Position numbers and translations under genes: made by a program. Below the pieces are notes generated by a model. It worked only from the letters and a program-made list of their open reading frames with translations. It was not told the DNA's origin and made no database searches. This document shows, piece by piece, positions 1-41,132 of a stretch of 45,621 nt of DNA. Every line of letters begins with the position of its first letter. Within the stretch, counting starts at the first letter, position 1. The stretch lies in NCBI GenBank assembly GCA_947631155.1, contig CANRKG010000011.1:1-45621 (forward strand), given 5' to 3'. This DNA comes from an uncultured Bacilli bacterium (GTDB lineage: Bacteria; Bacillota_I; Bacilli_A; RF39; UBA660).

Positions 1-1218
1 AATTGTAGAAAATATGATAATGATAGAGAAAATATTGAAGTTATTAGAGGTTCATTTTCGATAGTTGATGATGTTAAAAAATTATATATAGATGAGTTCG
101 AAGAAGCAAAAATTGAATATAATAACCAACAAATTCGTGATGATAGAAAAATAGAAGATTACTTCACTCATATTAGCAATAACTCTAAAAAAGATTTAGC
201 TTGTGAAATAATTATTGAACTTGGTGATATGGAATTTTGGAATACAAAAGATATGGATTATAAAAAGAAAATGACTAATGTATTTAAAGAACAAGTTAAT
301 GATTTAGAAACTGTTGTACCTAATTTTAAAATAGCAAGTGCAATCATTCATTATGATGAAACAAGTCCACATCTTCATATAATTGGTGTTCCAGTTAAAT
401 ATAAAAATAAATATGGTATGTCTAAACAAGTTGGTAAATCTGATGTTTTTACTAAAGAATCATTAACAAAAATTCAAGATAAAATGAGGGTGCGTTGTAT
501 GGAATCTTTTAACAAAGAATATCAAGTAAATTATCAATTAAAGACGAAATTAAAAGGCAGAAATCGAGATTATCATATAACTGAAATGGAAAACTATCAA
601 AAAATAAAAAAGTCTATTGAAATACACCAAAATAATTTAAAAAGTGCTAAAGAAAAAACAGAAAAATTGTCTAATAATATTTCTGAAATTAAAGAAATTC
701 TTGAAAGTTTAAAAGCAAAAGGATTAATTAAAAATCAATTAGCTATAGATGTTAAAGATCGAGATAAGGCAATTGTTTTTATAGATTTAATAGATAAAAC
801 TATTGCTGAATATCAAAATATTCAAGAGTTATCAGTTACTTTAAAAGAAATAAGTAATGAGTTAATTAGTAATCGACAGAGATTAAATTTATTAACCAAA
901 AATAACGAATCACTCAATCAAGAAGTTGATAAATTAAACGAAAATATCAAAGAAAGGGAAAATGAAATTCAAGAATTAAAAAAAGAAAATCATTCTTTAA
1001 AATCAACACTTGAACACTTTAAAGATATGATTTATAGATTAGTTCAACTCCTAATGGATAAAATTTTTGTTAAAAAAGATAAAAGATATGAAGATTTTGC
1101 TCAAGAATTATATGAACATGGTGCTTTAGATAAAGATAATTTTAAGATAATTTCAAATCCAAATAAATTAAGTGAATCAAAAGATTATGTAAAAGAAAAA
1201 GATGATATTGAGCATTAA
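1..1218 (+). CDS. MobV-family relaxase (Mob/Pre), N-terminus outside window
   Basis: The reading frame is open from base 1, so the gene is cut by the window edge; the first ATG in frame (229) is internal. Residues encoded at about 340-395 contain the family's metal-binding motif HYDETSPHLH (HxDExxPHxH), which defines MobV/Pre relaxases that nick oriT for conjugal mobilisation of small plasmids and mobilisable elements. Behind the catalytic part lies a long charged helix, with a predicted coiled coil at about 640-1020 (many E/K/L/N heptads), as usual for the C-terminal dimerisation region of this family. The acidic tail ends just before the stop. The gene converges on an ABC exporter gene and the two share a hairpin terminator. 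A MobV-type oriT is present at 40771-40802, but whether this relaxase acts on it cannot be told. Confidence 0.9.
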   Translation, partial: NCRKYDNDRENIEVIRGSFSIVDDVKKLYIDEFEEAKIEYNNQQIRDDRKIEDYFTHISNNSKKDLACEIIIELGDMEFWNTKDMDYKKKMTNVFKEQVNDLETVVPNFKIASAIIHYDETSPHLHIIGVPVKYKNKYGMSKQVGKSDVFTKESLTKIQDKMRVRCMESFNKEYQVNYQLKTKLKGRNRDYHITEMENYQKIKKSIEIHQNNLKSAKEKTEKLSNNISEIKEILESLKAKGLIKNQLAIDVKDRDKAIVFIDLIDKTIAEYQNIQELSVTLKEISNELISNRQRLNLLTKNNESLNQEVDKLNENIKERENEIQELKKENHSLKSTLEHFKDMIYRLVQLLMDKIFVKKDKRYEDFAQELYEHGALDKDNFKIISNPNKLSESKDYVKEKDDIEH

Positions 1219-4115: not shown

Positions 4116-5552
4116 TTAATCATCAAATCTTAATTGAAAGTTTAAATCTAAGCTTTCTAGATTTGTGATTGTGGAAGAAATAAGTGTGTTGATGAGATTT
4201 TTGCTTATTTCTTTTTTTGTTACAAATTTTTTTACTTCTTTATAAACAATAGAACCTAATTCTAATAATTGTCTAATTGTATGTGCAATTTGTATAAATA
4301 TATAATGAATTTTTAAAGCATTCTCAAATCTACTACATAAATGACTTATTTTATAAGTGCCATTTTTTTGTTCATTGAAACCCTCATTTTCAATTTTCCA
4401 ACGACTTCTACCCATAACCACAATTTCCTCAATATTATAACTATCTACCTTTAAATCAGTTATATAATTAAAAACAGTAGTTTTGTCTTCTTTTGTTTCA
4501 ATATATCTAAAAGCATTTAGCATATTTCCGTTAAACTCAATATTTGAAGATAAATAATAATTTTCTTTTGAAACTTCATTTTCATAATTTAGATTATCTT
4601 GAAATTCTTGATAGATACTTTTTAATCTGTCTTTTTTTAAATTGAAGATATAATGCCAATTATTATTTTTACAAATATTAATCATTGGTGTAGTTGCATA
4701 TAAAGCATCACCTGTAACTATAAATTTTAATTTTGGATAGTTCCTTTTAATTCTTTCTTGCATTCTTTTAAAAGCATTTATTTCACAATCTTGTTTATCT
4801 GATTCATTATTTAATTTATTATTTTCAATCCATTCAGAATCAATACTAATAACGATATTTCCAAATACTACTTTAGCTTCTAAAACATATTTATAATATT
4901 TAGTTTTACCATCTCTAATTCTAGTTAAACAATTTCCGTTTAAGTTATAATCTAAAGCAGTAAGTCCAGTAGCATCAACAATTAATTGAATGCAACCATT
5001 ATAGCGAAATCTATCAAACATTTTACTTCTTAAAAGAGCTTTGAACATATATTTTCTAATATCATTAATTTCATTATAATCTAATTGTTCAATAACATCT
5101 TGAATAGTTTGCCAATTAGGGATTTCATCTAATTTTTGATTACAAATTTTAGATAAATTTTTAATTGCTTCTTCAGTATTAAATTCTTCATTTATACCAG
5201 TCATAGTAGTAATACCACATAAAAGAGCAAATAATTTAGTCATAATTATGGTACGCATTTTATAAGTAATATAGCTTTTATGTCTTTTATCAGTAAGGTT
5301 AGAAAACAAGGACATTAAATTTGGAAAATATTTAAGTATAATTTTTCTTAATTCATTTAATAAATTTTTATCATTTAATAGCTCTCTTTGCTGTTTTCTA
5401 TTTAAACCATCAGATTTAGTAAATGTCTTTCCAGATTTAATTCTTATTGTTTTATCCTTGTGTTTCTTTTGCAAATATCTTTCTTTTTTTCTTCTTTCTA
5501 ATCTTCCTAAATTTTTACTTTTCTCGATTTCTTCAATTAATTCTTCACACAT
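4116..5552 (-). CDS. DDE transposase of the insertion sequence
   Basis: A 478-residue transposase with an IS4-like RNase H fold. The catalytic triad is visible as D in LIVDATG (about residue 193), D in VTGDALYA (about 282) and E in the region IENEGFNEQ (about 388), preceded by RSRWKI. The basic N-terminus (LERRKKERYLQKKHKD) and a helical region up to about 170 probably bind the ends. The ATG at 5552 follows AAGGTGG at good spacing. It is full length with no frameshift. The 8-bp duplication fits several DDE groups (ISAs1, ISL3 or unclassified); I do not assign one. Confidence 0.92.
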   Translation of the reverse strand: MCEELIEEIEKSKNLGRLERRKKERYLQKKHKDKTIRIKSGKTFTKSDGLNRKQQRELLNDKNLLNELRKIILKYFPNLMSLFSNLTDKRHKSYITYKMRTIIMTKLFALLCGITTMTGINEEFNTEEAIKNLSKICNQKLDEIPNWQTIQDVIEQLDYNEINDIRKYMFKALLRSKMFDRFRYNGCIQLIVDATGLTALDYNLNGNCLTRIRDGKTKYYKYVLEAKVVFGNIVISIDSEWIENNKLNNESDKQDCEINAFKRMQERIKRNYPKLKFIVTGDALYATTPMINICKNNNWHYIFNLKKDRLKSIYQEFQDNLNYENEVSKENYYLSSNIEFNGNMLNAFRYIETKEDKTTVFNYITDLKVDSYNIEEIVVMGRSRWKIENEGFNEQKNGTYKISHLCSRFENALKIHYIFIQIAHTIRQLLELGSIVYKEVKKFVTKKEISKNLINTLISSTITNLESLDLNFQLRFDD

Positions 5553-31374: not shown

Positions 31375-32160
31375 CTATTTATTATGAGTTTTAATAAGAA
31401 TTCTATAGTCTCTTTCATTTAATAAAACATTTCTTTTTGAATAGTTAAATAATTTTTCAGCATTATGTAATAATAAATCTTTATTATTAGTTGTAGCTGT
31501 AATAGATTGTAAATACATTTGTATAAAATTATCTTCAGGAATATTATCTTTGTAAAATGACTTTCTGTAATTTTCGTCAGTATATACTCTAAATACCTTT
31601 GAAGTTTGAACTTCAGGTAATCCATTTAATTTATGATAAAATTTTCTAATTTTTTCTATTGTTAAATGATATAAATGAATAAAATATGGACTATTTTCTT
31701 CTGCTGCTATTCTTAATTTTTCCATTCTATTAGTAATAATTGAAACCCATTCTCTTGCATCTTCTTGATCTAATGAAGGTAAAGGCTGTGAAAACTTTTC
31801 TTTTGTATAGTCTTGTAGTTGTTTTAAATATCCTTTTTTATCTAATATTATTTTTGATGTTCCTATAATTGACAACAAAGCATTATTTTGATTTTGATAA
31901 TCATTTTGTATAGATAAGTATATATCTTCAATAGGCTTTTCAAAATATTCAAGCCTTATTCCTTTAATATATGTTGAACCTCTAATCAAATGCTTTGGAT
32001 TATTATTATCAAAAATAACATGTAAATCAATATCTGAATTTTTATTATTATAACCAGTTAAATAGCTTCCATAAAAATAAATGCCAAGTACATGTTCATT
32101 TTGTAAATATTCCATTTTTTCAATAAATTGATTTATTATTAATAATATCTTTTTTTCCAT
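31375..32160 (-). CDS. Nucleotidyltransferase (aminoglycoside adenylyltransferase-like)
   Basis: GIYFYGSYLTGYNNKNSDIDLHVIF (in pieces, about 25-50) is the GSxxxG...DxD motif of Pol beta-type nucleotidyltransferases. The C-terminal helical domain resembles KNT/ANT-type resistance enzymes in layout only; the substrate is not predictable. 261 residues. Its stop abuts the end of the methyltransferase on the other strand without a gap. An AAGGGGG-like site precedes the ATG. Confidence 0.8.
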   Translation of the reverse strand: MEKKILLIINQFIEKMEYLQNEHVLGIYFYGSYLTGYNNKNSDIDLHVIFDNNNPKHLIRGSTYIKGIRLEYFEKPIEDIYLSIQNDYQNQNNALLSIIGTSKIILDKKGYLKQLQDYTKEKFSQPLPSLDQEDAREWVSIITNRMEKLRIAAEENSPYFIHLYHLTIEKIRKFYHKLNGLPEVQTSKVFRVYTDENYRKSFYKDNIPEDNFIQMYLQSITATTNNKDLLLHNAEKLFNYSKRNVLLNERDYRILIKTHNK

Positions 32161-32290: not shown

Positions 32291-32964
32291 TTTTTGTTAT
32301 ATTTTTTAATTTGTACTAAGTCTTTACTCAAATCTCCTAAAATTTGCTTTTTAAACATTTTTATATCAATAATGTTTTCTATTCCATTTATACTTTCTAA
32401 ATTATAAATAACTAAACGAATTTCATTATAAGTTTCTTCTGCTGATAAATCAAGAGGACCTAAACTATATAATCTATTTTTATTATAGTATCTTGTATGA
32501 TAAGTACTACCTGTTTTATCATGTTTCGCTCCAAAATAACGATATTCATTTGTAGTTATATCAAAAGTTATAATTCTTTCTTCAGTTATATTTTCTTTTT
32601 GTTCTTGTTCATCAAATTCTATTTTAGTTCTTTCATCAATTTTTATCTCTTCGTCAGTAAATGAAATATTATAAAGACGATTAGCTTTCGATATAACATA
32701 AAATATTCCTTTATTAATTTTTTGTTTTCCACTGTTCCATAACACACTAATACATAATGAATCTAATAAATGAAATTCATCACTAGATTCAATTTTTTTT
32801 ACATAATCACCAATAGTAATATAATCACTAATTACAATTTTAGAAATATTATTTTCACTTGATATAGTAATTTCAAAATCACTTTGTTCTTCAATAGCAT
32901 TTTTAGTAGTTTTATTATTTGTATCATTATCTTGTAATTTTTGTTTCGTTAAATTTTTAAACAT
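32281..32964 (-). CDS. Unrecognised protein, 227 residues
   Basis: Soluble; acidic, low-complexity N-terminus (residues 10-30) and a beta-rich middle. No family recognised. The ATG at 32964 follows GGGGG about 6 bases upstream. Its stop codon is part of a gene-end element. Confidence 0.7.
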   Translation of the reverse strand: MFKNLTKQKLQDNDTNNKTTKNAIEEQSDFEITISSENNISKIVISDYITIGDYVKKIESSDEFHLLDSLCISVLWNSGKQKINKGIFYVISKANRLYNISFTDEEIKIDERTKIEFDEQEQKENITEERIITFDITTNEYRYFGAKHDKTGSTYHTRYYNKNRLYSLGPLDLSAEETYNEIRLVIYNLESINGIENIIDIKMFKKQILGDLSKDLVQIKKYNKNRR

Positions 32965-33053
32965 TGTATTGTACCCCCATTGAATAATTTGATAAAAAAC
33001 ATGAGTTTATAATACTATAGTAAAGAATAAAAGTCAATTATAGGCTTTAGGGA

Positions 33054-33073
33054 TTTTGACAAGTGTATCAAAA
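33054..33073. repeat. 20-bp inverted repeat, copy 1 (TTTTGACAAGTGTATCAAAA)
   Basis: Flanked by TAGGGA before and TA after; differs by one base from 40979-40998, which has TAGGTA before. As RNA on the minus strand it forms a hairpin, possibly a terminator. Confidence 0.6.
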
Positions 33074-33122
33074 TATAATAGGGGAGAAGAGAATAATAAA
33101 AGTAATCAATGTTCTTCTTTTT

Positions 33123-33325
33123 TTATTTAAAAATAATATGGTAAGGGTAACCTTGTTTATCAATATCATACAAATTTAATTCAAGTTTTTGAGCTAATTT
33201 CAATAAATTATAATATTCTTTAACAGCTTTTTCATCATATTTTTTTACTTCAATTTCTATAAAGTAGCCTAATTTTTTTACATAATCTAAAGCTATTTCA
33301 TATTTATTACTAAGAATATTTTAGT
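33123..33325 (-). pseudogene. C-terminal fragment of a CYTH-domain (class IV adenylate cyclase-like) protein
   Basis: Translated on the minus strand the fragment reads NKYEIALDYVKKLGYFIEIE, then KAVKEYYNLLKLAQKL and YPYHIIFK before a stop. The pattern iALDyVxxLGxFiEiE is the second half of the CYTH fold. No start codon and no N-terminal half are present; the frame closes upstream. It lies directly behind the 648-residue gene. Confidence 0.7.
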
Positions 33326-33359
33326 AAAAAGAAAAGATATAACAATAATTTAGAATTTT

Positions 33360-35306
33360 TTATTTTCTTCTTTTCTTAGCATTTCTTTTTAATCTTAATG
33401 CTTTTGGTTCTTGTACTTCTTGTTCCAAATGTTTTTTCCAAGCTTTCTTATTTAATGGTTTTAAAGCGACATTAATTTTCTTTTCAATTGATATAAGTGC
33501 ACTTTCTTGTTTTTCATCTGGTCTATTTGGAATATTTTCAAGATTGTCATATTCACTCGTGTATACACCAATTGTTTGTGGGGGAGATAAAGATCCTTTT
33601 TTAGATAGTGTTTGAATTTCAAAAATTCTCAAATTGTTATGTTGACATGTTTTTGGAAAAACAATAGCACATAATGTTCTATTTTGATAAACATTTTCAA
33701 CTCTAATACTATCTTTTCCTTCTATAATTTTCATTCCCTCTGGAATTTGATCTATTAGTCCATTATTTCTATAGTCTAAATAGCTTATAATTGAATTTCT
33801 TATGTTATCGAATTGTCTGATAGGAGCAAGTTCTGCTTCTTTTTTCTTTTCTTTATTATTATAAGCATTTATATAATCTTGATTTATTTCTTCTGCGGTT
33901 TTGAAATCTAAATCACTTATTGTAGGCTTACTTCTTTGGATTAAAGCTTGATTATAAAAATTAACAGATGATTCTAGAATGCTTTTTATTTGAGAATATT
34001 TTTGTTCATATTTTGTCCAATATTCATCTTTTGCTTTAACCTCAGGTAATTTTAGAATTTTAATTTCGTTGCTATGATATTCAGAGTCTGGTGCATAGTT
34101 TCCTCCATACGCATATTTTAATTTGATGCGATATGCTAAATCAGTATCAACCCCCCAATAAAGATTATCATACGTTACTAAAAGGGTTAGTTCTTTTCCG
34201 GTATCTTTACATTGCTCTGTACTTTCGTGATTCATATTTAAAAGATTCCTTGAATATTGCTGTGTTGCAATAATAATATCATATTTGCCAAGATTACTTT
34301 TAACATATTTACCTAAGCTACTATTCGTATCATCTTTAAAATCGACATTTAGACCTAATTCACTAGAAATTTCACTAATTCTATCAAAATACTTACAAAC
34401 AGGATCTAAGTATAATATTTTTAAATCAGACTTTTTGGTTGGTAAAGGTAATCGATTTGGATTGATGTAGTCTTGAATTGGTACAAATTTCTTGCCGTTT
34501 AAATTCCCTTTTTCTAATATCTGATTAATTAGCATATTTTCTACAATTCTATCAAAGAGACCTTGATAAGTTAATTCTGTTGTTTTCCAAAATCTATGAT
34601 TTTTTCTATCAGACAAATGGGTATCTAACTCCATATGATCAGAATAAATATATCTATGCAAAGAAGTTATCAGAATTTGTTGTTTATTGTTTAATCTGAA
34701 TATTGTTCCGTTTAATGAAACATCACCCTCAAAACAACAGTGCTGAACATTTTGATTTCCTTCTAAAATAATATGATATTTTTCTAATTCATCTGGATGT
34801 TTAGCAAAATAAGAATCCGCTCTTATAATCGATTTGAAATAGTCTACATTTTTAAAGCCATATTTTATAAGTTCATCGTAATCATCCTGTATATCTGATA
34901 TAAGTAATACGTTTGCTTCATTTAAAACGTTTTCTTTGTTTGTTTTTAAAGCATTTTCTTTTTCTGTTTTATACTTTTCTATATCTAAACTACTAAAATA
35001 GTTAGCGACTTTATTTCCCGCTATTTCCAATAATTTTTTTCGTAAAGTACATTTTTCTTCTTCAATAAAATAATCTAATGATATGCCATCCTTTAATTGA
35101 ATAGTTCCATTCTCAAGTGTTTCAATATATTTTCTTAAATAATTAGGGGAATAATTCCACAAGATTCCAACTATTTCTGTATTTAGTTTTTCTTTCAAAT
35201 CAATAACTAATAAACTAAAGTCAATGTTATCAAGTGATTCGAATTTTAATAATGCTCCTGCAATGATTGAATCATATTGTATTTTATCCATTTGTCTTTC
35301 TTTCAT
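33360..35306 (-). CDS. Large unrecognised protein, 648 residues
   Basis: Soluble; apparent order is a helical N-terminus (1-150), an alpha/beta part with ILYLDPVCKYFDRI (about 305) and YDIIIATQQYSRN (about 345), which looks like a Rossmann-like or restriction-like fold, and a basic C-terminal tail (ALRLKRNAKKRRK), suggesting nucleic-acid binding. AGGGAGG precedes ATG 35306. No known family. It is followed by a CYTH fragment and preceded by a type I toxin locus on the other strand. Confidence 0.75.
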   Translation of the reverse strand: MKERQMDKIQYDSIIAGALLKFESLDNIDFSLLVIDLKEKLNTEIVGILWNYSPNYLRKYIETLENGTIQLKDGISLDYFIEEEKCTLRKKLLEIAGNKVANYFSSLDIEKYKTEKENALKTNKENVLNEANVLLISDIQDDYDELIKYGFKNVDYFKSIIRADSYFAKHPDELEKYHIILEGNQNVQHCCFEGDVSLNGTIFRLNNKQQILITSLHRYIYSDHMELDTHLSDRKNHRFWKTTELTYQGLFDRIVENMLINQILEKGNLNGKKFVPIQDYINPNRLPLPTKKSDLKILYLDPVCKYFDRISEISSELGLNVDFKDDTNSSLGKYVKSNLGKYDIIIATQQYSRNLLNMNHESTEQCKDTGKELTLLVTYDNLYWGVDTDLAYRIKLKYAYGGNYAPDSEYHSNEIKILKLPEVKAKDEYWTKYEQKYSQIKSILESSVNFYNQALIQRSKPTISDLDFKTAEEINQDYINAYNNKEKKKEAELAPIRQFDNIRNSIISYLDYRNNGLIDQIPEGMKIIEGKDSIRVENVYQNRTLCAIVFPKTCQHNNLRIFEIQTLSKKGSLSPPQTIGVYTSEYDNLENIPNRPDEKQESALISIEKKINVALKPLNKKAWKKHLEQEVQEPKALRLKRNAKKRRK

Positions 35307-35360
35307 AAAGCAAACCTCCCTAAATATCTATATTATAACATAAATTTAATCAATGTTCGA

Positions 35361-35389
35361 TTGTTTTATAACATTAATTATCGTATAAT
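35361..35389 (+). promoter_or_regulatory. Promoter of toxin mRNA 1
   Basis: TTGTTT (35361-35366), 17-base spacer, TATAAT (35384-35389); start expected near 35396. Confidence 0.7.
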
Positions 35390-35456
35390 TTTAAATAGGA
35401 ACATTTAATGTGAGTGTCTGCCTCTAATCTTGAAAAAGAAAGGGGGATTGATAAGT

Positions 35457-35549
35457 ATGAAGAAAAGAATTTTTATAATAAAGATTCTTCGCTACATTGC
35501 TATCATTTTATTTCTCCTATCTTTATTGGTAGCAGTAATAAAAAATTGA
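35457..35549 (+). CDS. Type I toxin candidate 1, 30-residue hydrophobic peptide
   Basis: Sequence MKKRIFIIKILRYIA then IILFLLSLLVAVIKN: a basic N-terminus and one TM segment, the usual build of type I toxins that act on the membrane. AAGGGGG precedes the ATG by 10 bases. The mRNA has its own promoter and a strong terminator, and its 5' end (35410-35424) can pair with the 3' region (35588-35601), which would hide the start region, as in Fst/hok-type loci. A convergent antisense promoter lies behind. Too short for routine gene calling. Confidence 0.75.
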   Translation: MKKRIFIIKILRYIAIILFLLSLLVAVIKN

Positions 35550-35651
35550 CACTCTTTCATCGCTGAACGAGTGCCGTAATTCATAACGAGGCGACATTCA
35601 CTTTCGGAATTGAATGTTCCTCTTTTTTTATTTTATGCAAGTTTCCTTGAC
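35540..35651 (-). ncRNA. Antisense RNA of toxin locus 1
   Basis: Minus-strand promoter TTGCAA (plus 35681-35686), 17-base spacer, TATTAT (plus 35658-35663), start expected about 35651. A minus-strand terminator is formed by GGCACTC/GAGTGTC (plus 35569-35575 and 35548-35554) and a T run over plus 35540-35545. The RNA, about 110 bases, would cover the toxin terminator and end at the toxin stop codon. Confidence 0.7.
35588..35629 (+). terminator. Terminator of toxin mRNA 1
   Basis: GAGGCGACATTCA (35588-35600) pairs with TGAATGTTCCTC (35611-35622), followed by seven T. Confidence 0.85.
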
Positions 35652-35657
35652 AAATAC

Positions 35658-35686
35658 ATAATAACATAAAAAAGAACTTTTTGCAA
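35658..35686 (-). promoter_or_regulatory. Antisense promoter 1
   Basis: TTGCAA, 17 bases, TATTAT on the minus strand. The 35629-35670 segment is nearly identical to that at the second toxin locus (38337-38379). Confidence 0.75.
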
Positions 35687-35692
35687 GTTCTC

Positions 35693-35764
35693 TATATCAA
35701 AGTCCGAAAAAGTTTGAACAAATTCGTCACTGGTGCGAATGTCATATGTATCTACAACTCACCA
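35693..35764 (-). repeat. Gene-end element, copy c
   Basis: The first 43 bases match 41021-41063 at 34 positions, including CGAAAAAGTT and GTCACTGGTG. The rest forms an imperfect palindrome (GGTG...CACC) that on the minus strand contains GTTGTAGATA, as in R1-R3. It begins about 60 bases behind the stop of the 212-residue minus-strand gene. Confidence 0.7.
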
Positions 35765-35824
35765 CTCAATTAGAAATTAATACAATGTAATATCAATTTT
35801 TTAATAGAATTATAAACTGATTTA

Positions 35825-36463
35825 CTATATTTTTGTTTTTTTATTAAATTGTTTAATTATTCTTAAATGTTTTCTTTTTCCAGTTAAATCTTTATCTGCT
35901 TCAGGTTCTTGATGTAAAAAATTTTCTTCCATCTCTTTTAATTTTTGTAAGTAAATCATTTCATTAAGTAATTTCTTTTTTTGTTTAAGTTGATTTAATG
36001 AATCATTTTCACTAATTACAATATGTTTATTATCATCTATACTAGATCCATCAACTTTAATCATTTCATCCATTTTACTAATTATATTTTCTTTTACTCT
36101 AAATATAGTATTTTGATTAAATATATATTTCTTTTCTTCTAAAAATTCTAGTACTTCCTGATTATCTAAACTATCAAGAATAGTTTTATATTCGCAATCT
36201 AGTTTTTTAGTAATAATTTGAATAAATGGATATAAATTAGAAACTGGAAACAAGGACAATAATATTCTTGTAGCGTACTTCCCACGATCAACTACTTCAT
36301 CAGCTATTAAAGAAAATAAATTATGATCATCCGTCTTTTCATATCCTTTATCCTTTAATTTTTTGTCAAATTCTAAATGCAATTTTATCTCTTTTCTACC
36401 CATATATATAACATTTATTAAAGAAGGTATATATAATAATCCTATTATCGGTACATATATCAT
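35825..36463 (-). CDS. Unrecognised protein with short N-terminal membrane segment
   Basis: 212 residues: hydrophobic start MIYVPIIGLLYIPSLINVIYM, a second weak segment (ATRILLSLFPVSNLYPFIQ, about 70-90), then a charged helical C-terminus ending KQFNKKTKI. Likely membrane-associated. GGAGG precedes the ATG. No family recognised. Confidence 0.7.
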   Translation of the reverse strand: MIYVPIIGLLYIPSLINVIYMGRKEIKLHLEFDKKLKDKGYEKTDDHNLFSLIADEVVDRGKYATRILLSLFPVSNLYPFIQIITKKLDCEYKTILDSLDNQEVLEFLEEKKYIFNQNTIFRVKENIISKMDEMIKVDGSSIDDNKHIVISENDSLNQLKQKKKLLNEMIYLQKLKEMEENFLHQEPEADKDLTGKRKHLRIIKQFNKKTKI

Positions 36464-36726
36464 AAGTAATAACCTCCAACTTAATTATATCAAAATAATA
36501 ACTTTGACACAAGTATTAAACTTATTAGTGGAAAGAAAAAATTGTATTTGTTCGTTTGTTTATGTATTTATAATATGATAATATTTCTTACAATAGTTAC
36601 ACTTATATTATTTTGTTTTTCTTGATCATTAAATAATATTTTTCTTAATTGTAAAACATATGATAAAGAGTCAATTATTCTCTTTTATAAAATTACAAAC
36701 AATTATAAAAGTATTATGAAATTATT
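36464..36726. other. Non-coding gap between two minus-strand genes
   Basis: No ORF with a start and ribosome binding site, and no repeat element, was found; only the upstream region of the 212-residue gene and AT-rich sequence. Confidence 0.5.
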
Positions 36727-37080
36727 TTATTTATATATCGTTTTAGTTAATGCACGTTTGTATAGTTTTGTTTTACCTTTGAAATAATCATCTAAAGGTT
36801 CTCCTTTAGCAATTATTTCTCGAAAAAAATCATTTATTTCTGAATATAAAATAAAATCTCTATTTTCACAGATATTTAAGGCTCTATGAGCTCTTTTAGT
36901 TAATAAAGCCGCATTATCTTTACATAATTGCCCACCATCTGCGACTTTTACTACATGGTGTAAAGTCAATATATTACCATTTGTTATTTGATAATTTAAC
37001 CAATCAGCCCCATCAGGTTCATATATTTTTATTAGTTCTCTTAATAGCAATTGATTTTTATTATAATAAACATTTCCCAT
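36727..37080 (-). CDS. HNH-type nuclease domain protein
   Basis: 117 residues. LTLHHVVKVADGGQLCKDNAALL (in pieces, about 38-60) with AHRALN following is the HNH pattern: HH, an Asn some 15 residues later and a final His. No Cys-x-x-Cys is present. Small stand-alone HNH proteins cut DNA in phages, defence or homing elements. GGCGGTG precedes the ATG. The promoter is a copy of the antisense promoter of the toxin loci. Confidence 0.75.
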   Translation of the reverse strand: MGNVYYNKNQLLLRELIKIYEPDGADWLNYQITNGNILTLHHVVKVADGGQLCKDNAALLTKRAHRALNICENRDFILYSEINDFFREIIAKGEPLDDYFKGKTKLYKRALTKTIYK

Positions 37081-37181
37081 AAATTCACCGCCATATTAAT
37101 TTTAATTATTACTATAAACTTTATGCTATCCTTGAAATGATATATATACATATGCCAATATGCAGTTTTTTTGACATATAC

Positions 37182-37210
37182 ATCATAACATAAAAAAGGC
37201 TTTTTTATAA
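37182..37210 (-). promoter_or_regulatory. Promoter of the HNH gene, related to the toxin antisense promoters
   Basis: Minus strand: TTATAA (37210-37205), 17-base spacer ending TTTTTTATGT, TATGAT (37187-37182). The stretch TTTTTTATGTTATGATGTAT is shared with the two antisense promoters. Confidence 0.65.
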
Positions 37211-37230
37211 GTTGTTTTCTATTTCACTTG

Positions 37231-37289
37231 AAGTTCGAGTTTCTTATCATAGTGGTGTGAATGACGTAGGAATCTATAACTTTTCACAC
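37231..37289 (-). repeat. Gene-end element, copy d
   Basis: AAGTTCGAGTTTC, then TAGTGGTGTGAATG and a palindrome with GTGTGAA/TTCACAC arms; on the minus strand it holds AAAGTTATAGATTCC, parallel to AAGTTGTAGATAtc of R2. It lies 10 bases behind the stop of the 231-residue gene. Confidence 0.6.
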
Positions 37290-37298
37290 ATAACAATT

Positions 37299-37994
37299 TT
37301 ATTTTTCATTTTCCAGATATTCGTATAAAATAGGGCAAATATTTTTTAAATCAATTGTGGTATTATTTACTGCATAATTAAAGATATCTTTGAGCTTATA
37401 TGAATCTTTTATATAACATAATTTTATTTTGCTATTATTTATACTGTGATCAGATAGACAATGTAAATTCCATTTATCCATATTATTGTTTTCTAATGAT
37501 GAATATTTCTTTGAATAACCCATTAATTCTAAATGTCTTTTTTTATAATTTCTAGATTTAATTTCATCAATATCATCATATCTAAAATCAACATTTTTCT
37601 CTAAATCTAATTTTAATAAAATAGATTCATTTAACAATTTATTAAATACTTTATAGGCTCTATTTTTATGTATTTTAGTCTTATTCAGTATCCAAAAGTA
37701 TATATCTGCTATAAATTGAGGAAACCATCTCTGCCTTAAAAAATGTGCTCCCAAATTATAAACAATAGGAATTTTAGGCATATAGTAAAAAACATTAATC
37801 CAACAATCAAACAATATTAACAAATTGTCTAATCCTTCAACAAAAAAGATTTTTTTTGTTTTCTCGATATATTTGGCGTGCTTTCCAATAGAAGGAATTA
37901 GTCCCTGATTTTTTATAGATTCCAAATTACTTTTAAAAGTAAAATGAAAATAATGAGCCGTTATATCATTAATAGATATTTGATATTTTTCCAT
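37299..37994 (-). CDS. Possible ADP-ribosyltransferase-fold protein
   Basis: The N-terminal part YHFTFKSNLESIKNQGLIPS is the H-[YFT]-T...NLxSIxxxGL pattern that opens many ART-like folds (Tpt1/KptA, DarT and DUF4433-like). Further expected motifs (a Y- or S-based second strand, a final E or Q) cannot be placed with certainty; a hydrophobic stretch at 58-75 is unusual. 231 residues. Toxins and tRNA-phosphate-removing enzymes share this start, so the function is open. An AGGAGA-like site precedes the ATG. Confidence 0.5.
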   Translation of the reverse strand: MEKYQISINDITAHYFHFTFKSNLESIKNQGLIPSIGKHAKYIEKTKKIFFVEGLDNLLILFDCWINVFYYMPKIPIVYNLGAHFLRQRWFPQFIADIYFWILNKTKIHKNRAYKVFNKLLNESILLKLDLEKNVDFRYDDIDEIKSRNYKKRHLELMGYSKKYSSLENNNMDKWNLHCLSDHSINNSKIKLCYIKDSYKLKDIFNYAVNNTTIDLKNICPILYEYLENEK

Positions 37995-38081
37995 ATATAT
38001 TCTCCTAATTAGAAATTATATATAATAACAAATCAATATGCAAGTGTGTTTTCTAAATTGTCAAAATTTAATATAAAAACA

Positions 38082-38110
38082 TTGTGTTAAGAACATTTGT
38101 TTGATATAAT
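38082..38110 (+). promoter_or_regulatory. Promoter of toxin mRNA 2
   Basis: TTGTGT (38082-38087), 17-base spacer, TATAAT (38105-38110). Confidence 0.7.
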
Positions 38111-38180
38111 TACTTTAGGAATACTTAGTTAGTTTAGGTACTATTCTCCTTTACTTTTTAAAGTGGAAGGAGGTGAAGTT

Positions 38181-38273
38181 ATGAGAAAATCAGAGAAATA
38201 TCTTTGCTCTATCATAATACTCCTTATTATTGTGATTTTAATCATATTAATAAAAATAGTACCAACTGTATAG
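38181..38273 (+). CDS. Type I toxin candidate 2, 30-residue hydrophobic peptide
   Basis: MRKSEKYLCSII then ILLIIVILIILIKIVPTV: basic start plus one TM segment, the same length as candidate 1 but with no clear sequence identity. GGAGGTG precedes the ATG. TTAGGTACTATTC in the leader (38134-38146) is the exact complement of GAATAGTACCTAA (38298-38310) in the terminator arm, so leader and 3' end can close over the message. The antisense promoter behind it is a near copy of that at locus 1. Confidence 0.78.
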   Translation: MRKSEKYLCSIIILLIIVILIILIKIVPTV

Positions 38274-38359
38274 GTCGGTACTGGTCTAAAATTTTTGGAA
38301 TAGTACCTAACTCATCAAAATTAGGTATTCCTTTTTTATTTTATGCAAGTTTCCTTGAC
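38252..38359 (-). ncRNA. Antisense RNA of toxin locus 2
   Basis: Promoter TTGATA, 17 bases, TATGAT on the minus strand (plus 38394-38366); start about 38359. A minus-strand hairpin AGTACC/GGTACT (plus 38277-38282 and 38258-38263) followed by a T-rich run ends it within the toxin's last codons. Length about 105 bases. Confidence 0.7.
38297..38340 (+). terminator. Terminator of toxin mRNA 2
   Basis: GGAATAGTACCTAA (38297-38310) pairs with TTAGGTATTCC (38321-38331) with a small bulge, followed by six T. Confidence 0.8.
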
Positions 38360-38365
38360 AAATAC

Positions 38366-38394
38366 ATCATAACATAAAAACGCACTTTTATCAA
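38366..38394 (-). promoter_or_regulatory. Antisense promoter 2
   Basis: TTGATA (38394-38389), 17-base spacer, TATGAT (38371-38366), close to consensus. Confidence 0.8.
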
Positions 38395-38400
38395 GTACGT

Positions 38401-38460
38401 TATCTATTTGAAAAAGTTCGAACGAATTCGCCACTGGTGTCCTAAAGTAAGACGCATGAC
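38401..38460 (-). repeat. Gene-end element, copy e
   Basis: TTTGAAAAAGTTCGAACGAATTCGCCACTGGTG matches copies c and g; the adjoining palindrome is GTGTC/GACGC. It lies just behind the hydrolase fragment on the minus strand. Confidence 0.65.
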
Positions 38461-38482
38461 AATTTATCTTTTTAAATCTCTT

Positions 38483-38585
38483 TTAAAATTTTCGAAAAAA
38501 ATTATATCCAGTTTCTTCATTTAAATGACCACTGTTATGGATTATGATTTCTTTAGCATTTATAGATTTAGCAATTTTTTTAAAT
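38483..38585 (-). pseudogene. C-terminal fragment of an RBBP9/YdeN-type serine hydrolase
   Basis: On the minus strand: KKIAKSINAKEIIIHNSGHLN then EETGYNFFRKF and a stop. The pattern sGHfNxxxGYxxFp is the C-terminal active-site His region of the RBBP9/YdeN hydrolases. Nothing of the N-terminal part remains. It follows the 255-residue gene by a few bases. Confidence 0.65.
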
Positions 38586-38596
38586 AGCTATGATTT

Positions 38597-39364
38597 TTAT
38601 TTATTATTATTTTCTCTTGTTTTAACAAAAGAATAATTCTCTTGTTGATCATTGTCATCAGAAAAATCTTCTTCTAACATTTTAGAAAAAAATGATAGTT
38701 TTTCTTTTTTTAACTTTTCCTCTTGATTTTCACTTAAAGCAATAAACTCTTTACAATGTCCATAATATAAATCTTTTATTTGAACTTCTTTTTTTGGATA
38801 AATTTCACTTTCAAAAATTCCATCTTTTGCCATATTGTGTTTAAATTCTCTAAATGTTAAGTATGTTTCTGGGTTATTTCCTTTAGTAATCTTATCATGT
38901 AAATCTTTTACATTATAAATAATTGTATCTGCTAATCTTTCAATATCTGTAGTATAAACATCGCCATATTCATTTACATGAAAATCTAAATCTACAATAC
39001 GATCCCATCCTTCTTGTGAAATAGTACCTTCTTTTATTTTAGCTAAATCTTCTAATATTTCAAAAAGGGTTTTGCATTTTTCCTTTAAAATTGATGTATA
39101 GGTTTTAAAATATTGTAATGAATCAGGCTCAAAACTATAACGACTTTTCAAAATTAAATTTCCAAATATTCTAGCTTCTCTATGAATATCATCTTCTGTC
39201 CATTCTGCAGGATTATTCGAAATAGGCTTATAAGGTTTTTCTAATTGTTTTCTTAATGTTGGTTCTTCTTCATCCATTTTCTTATCTAAAAAGTTCTTTA
39301 TTTCACTTTCAGTTATTGATATTTCACAAGTATTTACATACTTTTCAATATCACTAAATGACAT
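38597..39364 (-). CDS. Unrecognised protein, 255 residues
   Basis: Soluble, acidic, helical (QLEKPYKPISNNPAEWTEDD; LDFHVNEYGDVYTTDIERLAD in pieces). No family recognised. Its start lies 8 bases behind a 37-residue ORF, so the two form one unit. GGAG precedes the ATG. Confidence 0.7.
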   Translation of the reverse strand: MSFSDIEKYVNTCEISITESEIKNFLDKKMDEEEPTLRKQLEKPYKPISNNPAEWTEDDIHREARIFGNLILKSRYSFEPDSLQYFKTYTSILKEKCKTLFEILEDLAKIKEGTISQEGWDRIVDLDFHVNEYGDVYTTDIERLADTIIYNVKDLHDKITKGNNPETYLTFREFKHNMAKDGIFESEIYPKKEVQIKDLYYGHCKEFIALSENQEEKLKKEKLSFFSKMLEEDFSDDNDQQENYSFVKTRENNNK

Positions 39365-39372
39365 TTGGAGCT

Positions 39373-39486
39373 TTAACTATCCACTACCATTGTATGTATA
39401 ATGTGTGAATCTACATAATAACCATTTTCACCATATAAGGTATATCGACTTAATAAGTCAACATATTTATCAACTCTAGCGTTCAT
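39373..39486 (-). CDS. 37-residue leader ORF
   Basis: ATG 39486 follows AAGGGAG with 7 bases between, and a TATAAT lies about 30 bases upstream of it. The product begins MNARVDKYVDLLSRYTLYGE and ends HTMVVDS, with no hydrophobic segment. It may be a small protein of its own or the surviving N-terminus of a longer one. Confidence 0.55.
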   Translation of the reverse strand: MNARVDKYVDLLSRYTLYGENGYYVDSHIIHTMVVDS

Positions 39487-39533
39487 AATTGATCTCCCTT
39501 GTTAAAAGTATTATATCATAAATTATACAAATT

Positions 39534-39592
39534 AAAAGTCCGAGTTTAATATTACTCTGGTGCCAAAAGAGAGGAAGTACGACAACCACTCT
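39534..39592 (-). repeat. Gene-end element, copy f
   Basis: AAAAGTCCGAGTTTAATATTACTCTGG then TGCC, close to copy a; followed by a stem AGAG/CTCT. Unlike the others it lies upstream of the minus-strand promoter with a plus-strand gene on its other side. Confidence 0.55.
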
Positions 39593-39711
39593 ATTGCCAA
39601 AAAGTAGTTAGTAATAAACTACTAACTATAACAAGTGATTTGTGTAGCATATTTTCATATAATTCGCATAATCGCTTAAAAATAGAATACTTTATAATGG
39701 AGGAACAATTT

Positions 39712-40431
39712 ATGAGTCAATTAGAAGAATTAAAAGGAATAAAAGAAAAACTTGATAATGGGACGTGTACTATAAGCGATTTAAAAAATATCTATGAATT
39801 TGTAAATACAAAATCGGAAGTAATAGTTGCAAAAAAATGTGATACCCAACACCTTTATTATCGTGATAATAAAAATGGAACTGTAAAATTAGAAAAAAAT
39901 TTAATTCCTTATGAGAGGAAAATAATTGAAACATGGGAACCTGAAATGTATCCTCTTGATTTATGTACTCTTAAGTTCTATGATGAAATAACAAATAGAT
40001 ATGGTCAAGGAATTATTCTTCCTCGTCTTAAAAAATTTGTTATGGTAGATGATATGAACTTAATCAAAAAACCACCTACAGCTTCCTTTCGTACTAGAGG
40101 TATTAATGAAAACAATGAAAATTGTAGTAGTATAGTAGATTTAAAAGGAAATATCTATCGTATGTATGGATATGGTGAGGAAGATGAAGATTTTACTTTT
40201 AGCAAAATTGAAGGTTTAACTCCTCATACATTTCATAAAAAAATTTATGGAACTTTAGTTTATTATCAGAATAACACTGTATATGCTGACGTTTGTATAT
40301 CACCATATATTATTCTAAATCAAGAATCCTTAAGAAAATATGTAGGAAATTTGGAATATACATATATTAAACAAGATATTGAAAAATTTGATGATGGCTT
40401 TATGCAAGGAAAAAGATATGTAAAAAAATAG
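39712..40431 (+). CDS. Unrecognised protein, 239 residues
   Basis: Soluble; charged helical N-terminus and a beta-rich C-terminal domain. No family recognised. ATG 39712 is preferred to ATG 39640 because GGAGG (about 39699-39703) lies 8 bases upstream. It is one of few plus-strand genes in this stretch. Confidence 0.7.
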   Translation: MSQLEELKGIKEKLDNGTCTISDLKNIYEFVNTKSEVIVAKKCDTQHLYYRDNKNGTVKLEKNLIPYERKIIETWEPEMYPLDLCTLKFYDEITNRYGQGIILPRLKKFVMVDDMNLIKKPPTASFRTRGINENNENCSSIVDLKGNIYRMYGYGEEDEDFTFSKIEGLTPHTFHKKIYGTLVYYQNNTVYADVCISPYIILNQESLRKYVGNLEYTYIKQDIEKFDDGFMQGKRYVKK

Positions 40432-40545
40432 AAATTTGCATATCCTTTTTTTGGGAAAAAGGAACAATATTACTTACGTAGTTTGTAATATGTTGCTTTA
40501 AAGGGGTTTCCAAAGGGGTTCTCCCTCAATGTCATCAGTTTAAGG

Positions 40546-40575
40546 AACTACATAAGAAATTGTGTAGTTTTATTA
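40546..40575 (+). terminator. Terminator hairpin downstream of the 239-residue gene
   Basis: AACTACA (40546-40552) pairs with TGTAGTT (40563-40569), then TTAT. Ahead of it (40499-40527) the G-rich AAAGGGGTT occurs twice. Confidence 0.6.
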
Positions 40576-40621
40576 TGTGTAAATGATAAAATAGATATAC
40601 AGAATAAAAGGAGTTAAATTA

Positions 40622-40714
40622 GTGGTAAAATTTAATAAAGAAGGAATTGAATTAATTAGAAATAAAATAAATTCAGAAGAATTAAAAAATATAGGGGAGA
40701 TTAACACCAAATAA
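40622..40714 (+). pseudogene. Short ORF, probably a truncated gene start
   Basis: GTG 40622 after AAAGGAG gives a 30-residue peptide beginning VKFNKEGIELIRNKINSEEL and stopping at 40714. It reads like the N-terminus of a soluble protein whose rest is gone. Confidence 0.4.
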
Positions 40715-40770
40715 TTTTACTAGAGAAAGAAAAATGGGATATTAAATTTTAAATATAAAAGCAGAAATAG

Positions 40771-40802
40771 TAACACACTACTAAGTTGGTAAACCAACTT
40801 AG
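40771..40802 (-). other. MobV-type origin of transfer (oriT)
   Basis: On the minus strand, CTAAGTTGGT-tt-ACCAACTTAG (40802-40781, 10-bp perfect inverted repeat) is followed at once by TAGTGTGTTA (40780-40771). This is the build of pMV158-type oriT sites: an inverted repeat bound by the relaxase and the nick site TAGTGTG/TTA beside it, so the expected nick is between 40774 and 40773. No relaxase gene follows it here; the only MobV gene in view is at 1-1218. Confidence 0.8.
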
Positions 40803-40978
40803 ATGTAAGTGAATAAATACCTTTTGAAATCATTTAAACAACATATTATCAACTAATTGTAAATAATACTATCGCCTGTTTATTTAAACTTGTTTTAAAT
40901 AAATAATTTAACTGAAAATATAGACAAAACCAACAGAAATAATGATGTGTCATTAAATCAAATAAAGACCCCTAGGTA

Positions 40979-40998
40979 TTTTGACAGGTGTATCAAAA
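40979..40998. repeat. 20-bp inverted repeat, copy 2 (TTTTGACAGGTGTATCAAAA)
   Basis: Same as 33054-33073 with one change. On the minus strand, downstream of tRNA-Thr, TAGGtTATTTTGA pairs with TCAAAATAcCTA, which may end the tRNA transcript. Confidence 0.6.
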
Positions 40999-41020
40999 TA
41001 ACCTAATGGGCTATCTTTTT

Positions 41021-41063
41021 TATATCAATATTCGAAAAAGTTCGAATAGAAATGTCACTGGTG
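41021..41063 (-). repeat. Gene-end element, copy g, abutting tRNA-Thr
   Basis: 34 of 43 bases equal copy c. On the minus strand it starts with the tRNA's CACCAGTGAC and includes the hairpin TTCGAA/TTCGAA. The copies elsewhere keep the CACCAG although no tRNA precedes them. Confidence 0.7.
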
Positions 41064-41132
41064 CCGATTGCGAGAATTGAACTTGCCTCTGATCCTTACC
41101 AAGGATCTGTTTTACCACTAAACTAAATCGGC
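41059..41132 (-). tRNA. tRNA-Thr(GGT)
   Basis: Acceptor GCCGATT/AATCGGC, D stem GTTT/AAAC, anticodon stem GATCC/GGATC around TTGGTAA (anticodon GGT), T loop TTCAATT, encoded CCA at 41061-41059. The T stem has one mismatch. Confidence 0.93.

Follow-up and report, generated by a model that had tools for sequence, protein, structure and literature searches.

The 32-base site at positions 40771 to 40802 of the stretch of 45,621 nucleotides analysed here (the window) is very probably a real origin of transfer (oriT). Our best explanation, to which we assign a probability of about 0.7, is that it is the oriT of a family of integrative mobilisable elements (IMEs) of uncultured gut Bacilli that encode a MobV relaxase of a second type, here called MobV2, and that the window carries it as an orphan, most likely a decaying relic. 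The relic could perhaps be moved by a MobV2 element that enters the cell and acts in trans, but not by the resident MobV relaxase that the window encodes. The relevant features are, by position in the window:

40771–40802, minus strand: oriT core, made up of inverted repeat IR1 (CTAAGTTGGT/ACCAACTTAG) and nick region TAGTGTG^TTA; read from the sequence, with the putative nick position taken from pMV158
40760–40881, minus strand: match to the MobV2-IME oriT unit under model R1, with hairpin A, a remnant of the spacer/hairpin B, and the oriT core; hairpins C and D deleted
40455–40521, plus strand: inverted, truncated second copy of the unit, with hairpin A intact and the start of hairpin B, cut before IR1; from repeats, BLAST and R1
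40519–40752, plus strand: IS-like remnant between the two partial oriT copies, 94% identical to G000:C7:43049-43282
41059–41132, minus strand: tRNA-Thr(GGT), apparent integration target, with a 44-nt duplication of its 3′ end in G007
41016–41063, plus strand: att-like end of an element (TTCGAAAAAGTTCGAA..CACTGGTG), directly next to the tRNA-Thr 3′ end and repeated at 35688–35736 and 38405–38439
35688–35736, plus strand: att-like copy, repeat of 41016–41063
38405–38439, plus strand: att-like copy, repeat of 41016–41063
40966–41008, minus strand: degenerate type-1 (MobV1) oriT-like motif ATTTTGATACACCTGTCAAAAT + ACCTAGGGGTCTT; MobV1 genes have a similar motif on their 5′ side
33030–33082, plus strand: second degenerate type-1 oriT-like motif (ATTTTGACAAGTGTATCAAAAT..TAGGGG), of which 28 nt are 93% identical to 40973–41000
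1–1218, plus strand: 5′-truncated gene of a MobV1 relaxase, which is not the site's cognate enzyme; the sole Mob_Pre match in the genome

The flagged site has the layout of a MobV-type oriT

Read on the minus strand, positions 40802 to 40771 spell CTAAGTTGGT-TT-ACCAACTTAG-TAGTGTGTTA (in continuous form CTAAGTTGGTTTACCAACTTAGTAGTGTGTTA), which is exactly the perfect 10-bp inverted repeat with adjoining motif in the pMV158 layout that the original prediction had described. IR1 directly abuts an exact TAGTGTGTTA, which contains the nick core GTGTG^TT, and ends 7 nt before the G^T, so that the repeat lies a few nucleotides 5′ of the putative nick as is expected of a MOBV oriT. The same layout, an IR1 hairpin just upstream of GTGTG^TT, is found in pMV158 (MOBV1, relaxase MobM; PMC5863519). 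The comparison with the oriTs of MobV plasmids that had been suggested at the outset bore this out: pYSI8, pTB19 and pSK37387 carry TAGTGTG(T/C)TA and a repeat 50–75 bp 5′ of mob on the same strand, and the TAGTGTGTTA of pYSI8 is identical to that of the flagged site. The IR1 core is predicted to fold into a single-stranded DNA hairpin (z −3.6). With up to three mismatches allowed, the flagged-site sequence is present as a single copy in the 1.48-Mb genome assembly. An Rfam scan matched tRNAs alone, a plasmid search with the window site yielded no match, and neither did a phage search with the fuller unit described below.

A conserved candidate oriT unit in uncultured gut Bacilli

A BLAST search of the site region against relatives retrieved homologous segments from other genomes, located at unrelated positions. 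The unit that emerged (the MobV2-IME oriT unit or oriT2, a class defined in the present analysis) consists, in this order, of hairpin A, a spacer, IR1, TAGTGTGTTA, hairpin C and a terminator-like hairpin D; an example of the outer hairpin A is GGCAACAATATTACTTACG..TTAGTTTGTAATATGTTGC, and the spacer carries GGGGTTTCAAAAGG..CCTTTGCACACA. The covariance model R1, which was built from five sequences of the site with its flanks, the window among them, and whose E-values are rough, located 67 places down to an E-value of 5e-4 and matched 55 of 193 family genomes at 0.01. In alignment A4, which was fitted to R1 so that the counts lean towards the model, 89.9% of the cells of both modelled hairpins are paired, 127 cells have changed on both sides as against a shuffled mean of 39, and the covariation score is 0.36 as against 0.02–0.07 when the partners are slid. 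The arm sequences visibly change together, as in CTAAGTTGG/CCGACTTAG and CGTTATTGG/CCAATATCG; TAGTGTGTTA is nearly constant across the copies of the unit, with exceptions such as TAGCGTGTTA in L027 and TAGTGGGTTA in L108. Of 87 distinct sites with a repeat and the exact motif, 77 have a CACAC in front of IR1 that is able to pair with GTGTG, and the extended hairpin predicted in this way has −10.4 kcal/mol (z −5.4) in L150. Intact members of the family thus resemble pMV158 also in having an IR3-like extended hairpin over the nick region. An exact-pattern scan of GTDB contigs with one arm variant gave 102 stretches, listed as 80 loci, most of them titled uncultured Bacilli or related gut bacteria.

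The window copy shares hairpin A, IR1 and TAGTGTGTTA with the unit. It matches L027 by BLAST at 4e-20, independently of R1, and scores 113 bits with R1, but the window helped to build that model.

Two further elements of structure were noticed on the way. The loop of hairpin A, CTTACGATTAGTTTGT, is nearly constant in A4 while the stem covaries, and loops of a similar kind (TTACGAAGTTT) were seen close to type-1 mob genes (L043, L045, L054). Outside oriT2 there is a conserved imperfect hairpin, AATACGTGGCACGTTTTGTT-GCGAAGC-AATGAAAGTGGCGATAGTATT, a similar one being found near type-1 mob genes; it was noted in L150, L144, L139, L047 and L054, that is, near both types of oriT, has no Rfam match in the loci scanned, and is possibly a single-strand origin or a structured RNA.

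MobV2 as the proposed cognate relaxase

The distant MobV matches of a first protein search coincided with oriT2 sites. Going by sequence and gene linkage, the TAGTGTGTTA unit has this distinct second MobV type as its cognate relaxase (the MobV2 query matches Pfam Mob_Pre at 1.2e-29). A MobV2 gene or fragment lies within 15 kb on the same contig at 39 of the 67 R1 sites, and at 37 of these 39 linked sites oriT2 is situated 3′ of mobV2 in convergent orientation, at distances from 15 bp to 7 kb. The same arrangement was seen in 46 of the 47 loci from the GTDB scan with a MobV2 gene, a set that overlaps in part with the former (e.g., L210/G021:C6 and L238/G104:C2) and is therefore not fully independent of it. 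In some elements a tyrosine integrase or a serine recombinase is encoded beside mobV2, and the common order in intact members is recombinase, mobV2, optional cargo, oriT.

This is a variant layout, because classic MobV plasmids and IMESag-rpsI have oriT on the 5′ side. In pYSI8, pTB19 and pSK37387 oriT is 5′ of mob and co-directional, whereas in MobV2 elements it is 3′ and convergent and has additional conserved outer hairpins. IMESag-rpsI resembles the MobV2 elements in being an integrated element with a MobV relaxase (MobSag), an inverted repeat-type oriT and a GTG(C/T)G^TT nick, but its oriT is located 5′ of mobSag, with ssoA on the 3′ side (PMC5090054). Among plasmids, the closest relatives of MobV2 (Priestia, L158, L159) contain no TAGTGTGTTA within one mismatch.

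The remaining 28 of the 67 R1 sites are solo, lacking a mobV2 neighbour on the same contig up to a distance of 15 kb; they include contig-edge cuts and copies near a serine recombinase, and the solo site L140 lies beside secA, followed by an apparent 3′ remnant of mobV. Two solo sites from G148 (L102 and L103) have a shortened hairpin A; type-1 MobV alone was found in that genome, as in the genome of the window.

The flagged site, too, has no mob gene next to it, as had been noted originally, on neither the 5′ side nor, in convergent orientation within a few kb, on the 3′ side as is usual for the MobV2 family. On the contig and in the assembly of the window, the MobV2 query had the resident MobV as its sole match (28% identity); a mobV2 gene could have been missed, the assembly being a draft of 64 contigs (95.9% complete, 6.9% estimated contamination).

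In pMV158 the nick site is found at the 3′ end of IR3, and binding of MobM shifts IR3 to IR1 (PMC5863519). By analogy, the MobV2 relaxase would bind the IR1 hairpin, the longer IR3-like hairpin in which CACAC pairs with GTGTG would melt before nicking, and the relaxase would cut TAGTGTG^TTA on the strand given above. The nicked strand would then pass to a helper type IV secretion system. The genome of the window may hold a helper conjugation system, since, besides a single PF03432-family relaxase, it encodes two TraG/VirD4-type proteins (T4SS-DNA_transf).

The window copy as a probable relic

Of 57 columns conserved in the other copies, the window copy differs at 9, whereas most of the others differ at 0–6. 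Unlike pMV158, it lacks the IR3-like arm as well as a relaxase: its CACAC is lost and with it the extended hairpin over the nick region. Hairpin C and most of hairpin D are deleted, only TTTCTGCTTTT being left of the latter. The second, inverted copy (46 bits with R1 over 40455–40592) is cut off where the 234-bp repeat shared with G000:C7:43049-43282 begins. This repeat, 40519–40752, reads as the terminus of an element followed by the first codons of a frame resembling a transposase gene, from which we infer that it is insertion sequence-like; it may be the truncated ORF that the original prediction had placed nearby. The window also holds a DDE_Tnp_1 transposase gene (4116–5552, 478 aa), to which no relation of the remnant was found. 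Yet another copy of the unit in the same genome (C49:6184-6313) has its nick motif destroyed (CATATTATATAG).

These observations are most simply explained by a loss of the element and subsequent decay. The relaxase, the integrase, the CACAC arm and the distal hairpins are gone, and the IS-like remnant now splits two partial inverted oriT copies, the whole residing in a putative att-bearing island at tRNA-Thr. Against a relic, IR1 and TAGTGTGTTA are still perfect, which leaves use in trans possible, and neutral decay would eventually erode both. Besides, the loss of the outer hairpins need not mean a loss of function, because in pMV158 IR1 plus 8 nt are enough for MobM binding (PMC5863519).

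In agreement with the original prediction of tRNA genes nearby, tRNA-Thr starts 257 bp from the flagged site. That it served as an integration target is supported by the same-genus genome G007, where 44 nt of the tRNA-Thr 3′ end are duplicated and a copy of att is present, both within 3 kb of the tRNA. Two other genomes of the genus (G002, G003) have tRNA-Thr and lack att and oriT2; in G008 att is present, and the contig begins about 110 bp before the match. An orthologous site at tRNA-Thr was found in none of the same-genus genomes in which the locus is readable, contrary to the expectation that the site would be kept in relatives; the sequence family itself is widespread elsewhere.

An alternative that we regard as unlikely is that the site remains in use. 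On this view the att-bounded segment (38440–41063 or 39545–41063) would be a mobilisable oriT-only cassette, for which a visiting element supplies in trans both a recombinase for excision and a MobV2 relaxase for nicking. IMEs with an oriT and no relaxase are a recognised class, the iOriT elements (PMC11389934), and the window resembles them in having an oriT without a relaxase of its own, in what may be an att-bearing segment. The perfect IR1 and nick motif, the att-like repeats that seem to bound the segment, the frequency of solo oriT2 sites (28/67) and the TraG/VirD4-type coupling proteins in the genome would all fit. However, the CACAC arm, hairpins C and D and part of A and B are lost or changed, two partial copies surround the IS-like remnant, no recombinase of the integrase/resolvase families was found among the 30 window ORFs scanned with Pfam, several of the solo sites are contig-edge cuts or come with mob remnants, and the site is missing at the same locus in other genomes of the genus. 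In contrast to iOriT elements, the window site shows a sequence decay that suggests a relic.

The att-like repeats around the oriT segment have their right end at tRNA-Thr; the left end may lie at 38440 or at 39545. They belong to a row that extends over 33000–41063, with CACTGGTG cores at about 35736, 38439 and 41063 and weaker ones at 37245 and 39545; the repeats separate mostly single genes without Pfam matches, and the row, which ends at tRNA-Thr, gives the impression of elements or cassettes that have accreted. The type-1-like motif at 40966–41008 sits between the flagged site and tRNA-Thr. It is a doubtful idea, and we mention it as such, that the island is a row of mini-cassettes with an att site at the end of each, beside an oriT-like motif of type 1, type 2 or both; if true, two different MobV relaxases acting in trans could each pick up relaxase-less gene cassettes and spread them in gut Bacilli. 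At 31375–32160 the window encodes a protein with a nucleotidyltransferase domain that weakly matches the PADLOC candidate PDC-S09 (1.2e-7), beside an ORF of unknown family.

Other explanations of the site

It is very improbable that the unit is mainly an RNA feature, with terminator or attenuator hairpins marking the 3′ end of mobV and TAGTGTGTTA not serving as a nick site. The terminator-like appearance of hairpins A and D and the position of the unit 3′ of mobV2 would be in line with such a role, but against it speak the IR1/IR3 arrangement, the conservation of the unit even at distances of up to 7 kb from mobV2, and a motif of 10 nt that hardly varies and that a MobV plasmid carries in identical form.

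The original prediction had offered two readings, a relic of a lost element, which is now the best-supported one, and mobilisation in trans of the surrounding chromosome segment or the array, for which it pointed to the MobV gene at the other end of the window. The gene is indeed there, as a 5′-truncated Mob_Pre gene at 1–1218; its own upstream region is unreadable because the contig start cuts the gene. The resident MobV belongs to the same superfamily as MobV2 and shares the contig with the flagged site, but the two are of different types and only about 28% identical. Relatives of the resident protein, of which the closest with a readable upstream region are about 72% identical, have an inverted repeat (e.g., ATTTTGTTAGTATGACAAAAT) followed by TAGGGGGTTA immediately 5′ of the gene, and not the repeat and nick site that the pairing had led one to expect there. 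More distantly, the MobV1-like relaxase gene of the Leptotrichia wadei plasmid pJMUB3934p4 (L160; 43% identity over 46% of the query) is preceded at 38 bp by the oriT-like repeat GAGTATTG..CAATACTC plus TAGGGAGTTA, and not by the 40771 type. The unit of inverted repeat and exact TAGTGTGTTA is absent from all 30 type-1 loci fetched. An action of the resident MobV on the site is accordingly even less probable than the RNA reading, and a comparison of the regions upstream of type-1 mob genes led us to reject it as cognate relaxase. A different oriT at the relaxase and a lack of the site in relatives, which the original prediction had named as speaking against itself, have thus largely been found.

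In L048 a repeat with TAGTGTGTTG was set aside, as it lies between ORFs, 3′ of a type-1 mob gene whose locus has a TAGGGGGTTA site upstream. In L160 (NZ_AP019839.1), the repeat and TAGGGAGTTA occupy positions 1–70 just 5′ of the MobV-like relaxase; MOB-suite types this plasmid as non-mobilizable.

The exact TAGTGTGTTA occurs twice, where order-1 Markov sequence of matching composition would give 0.095 copies per window; the other copy (32740–32749) lies within an ORF without an adjacent repeat. The genome is AT-rich and has many weak inverted repeats, but chance resemblance can be dismissed, as TAGTGTGTTA with an adjacent perfect repeat of at least 9 bp is expected only about 7e-5 times per window under the same model and the homologous unit in dozens of genomes refutes it.

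Significance

The flagged site itself is probably a remnant. What it has led to is a sequence-defined candidate oriT, backed by covariation, for a large IME group carried by uncultured gut Bacilli, in which oriT is placed 3′ of mobV and convergent with it, unlike in pMV158 and IMESag. The model could be used to pair resident relaxases with candidate oriTs or to separate them, and it could find oriT-only hitchhikers and relics in metagenomes that are missed when relaxase genes alone are searched for.
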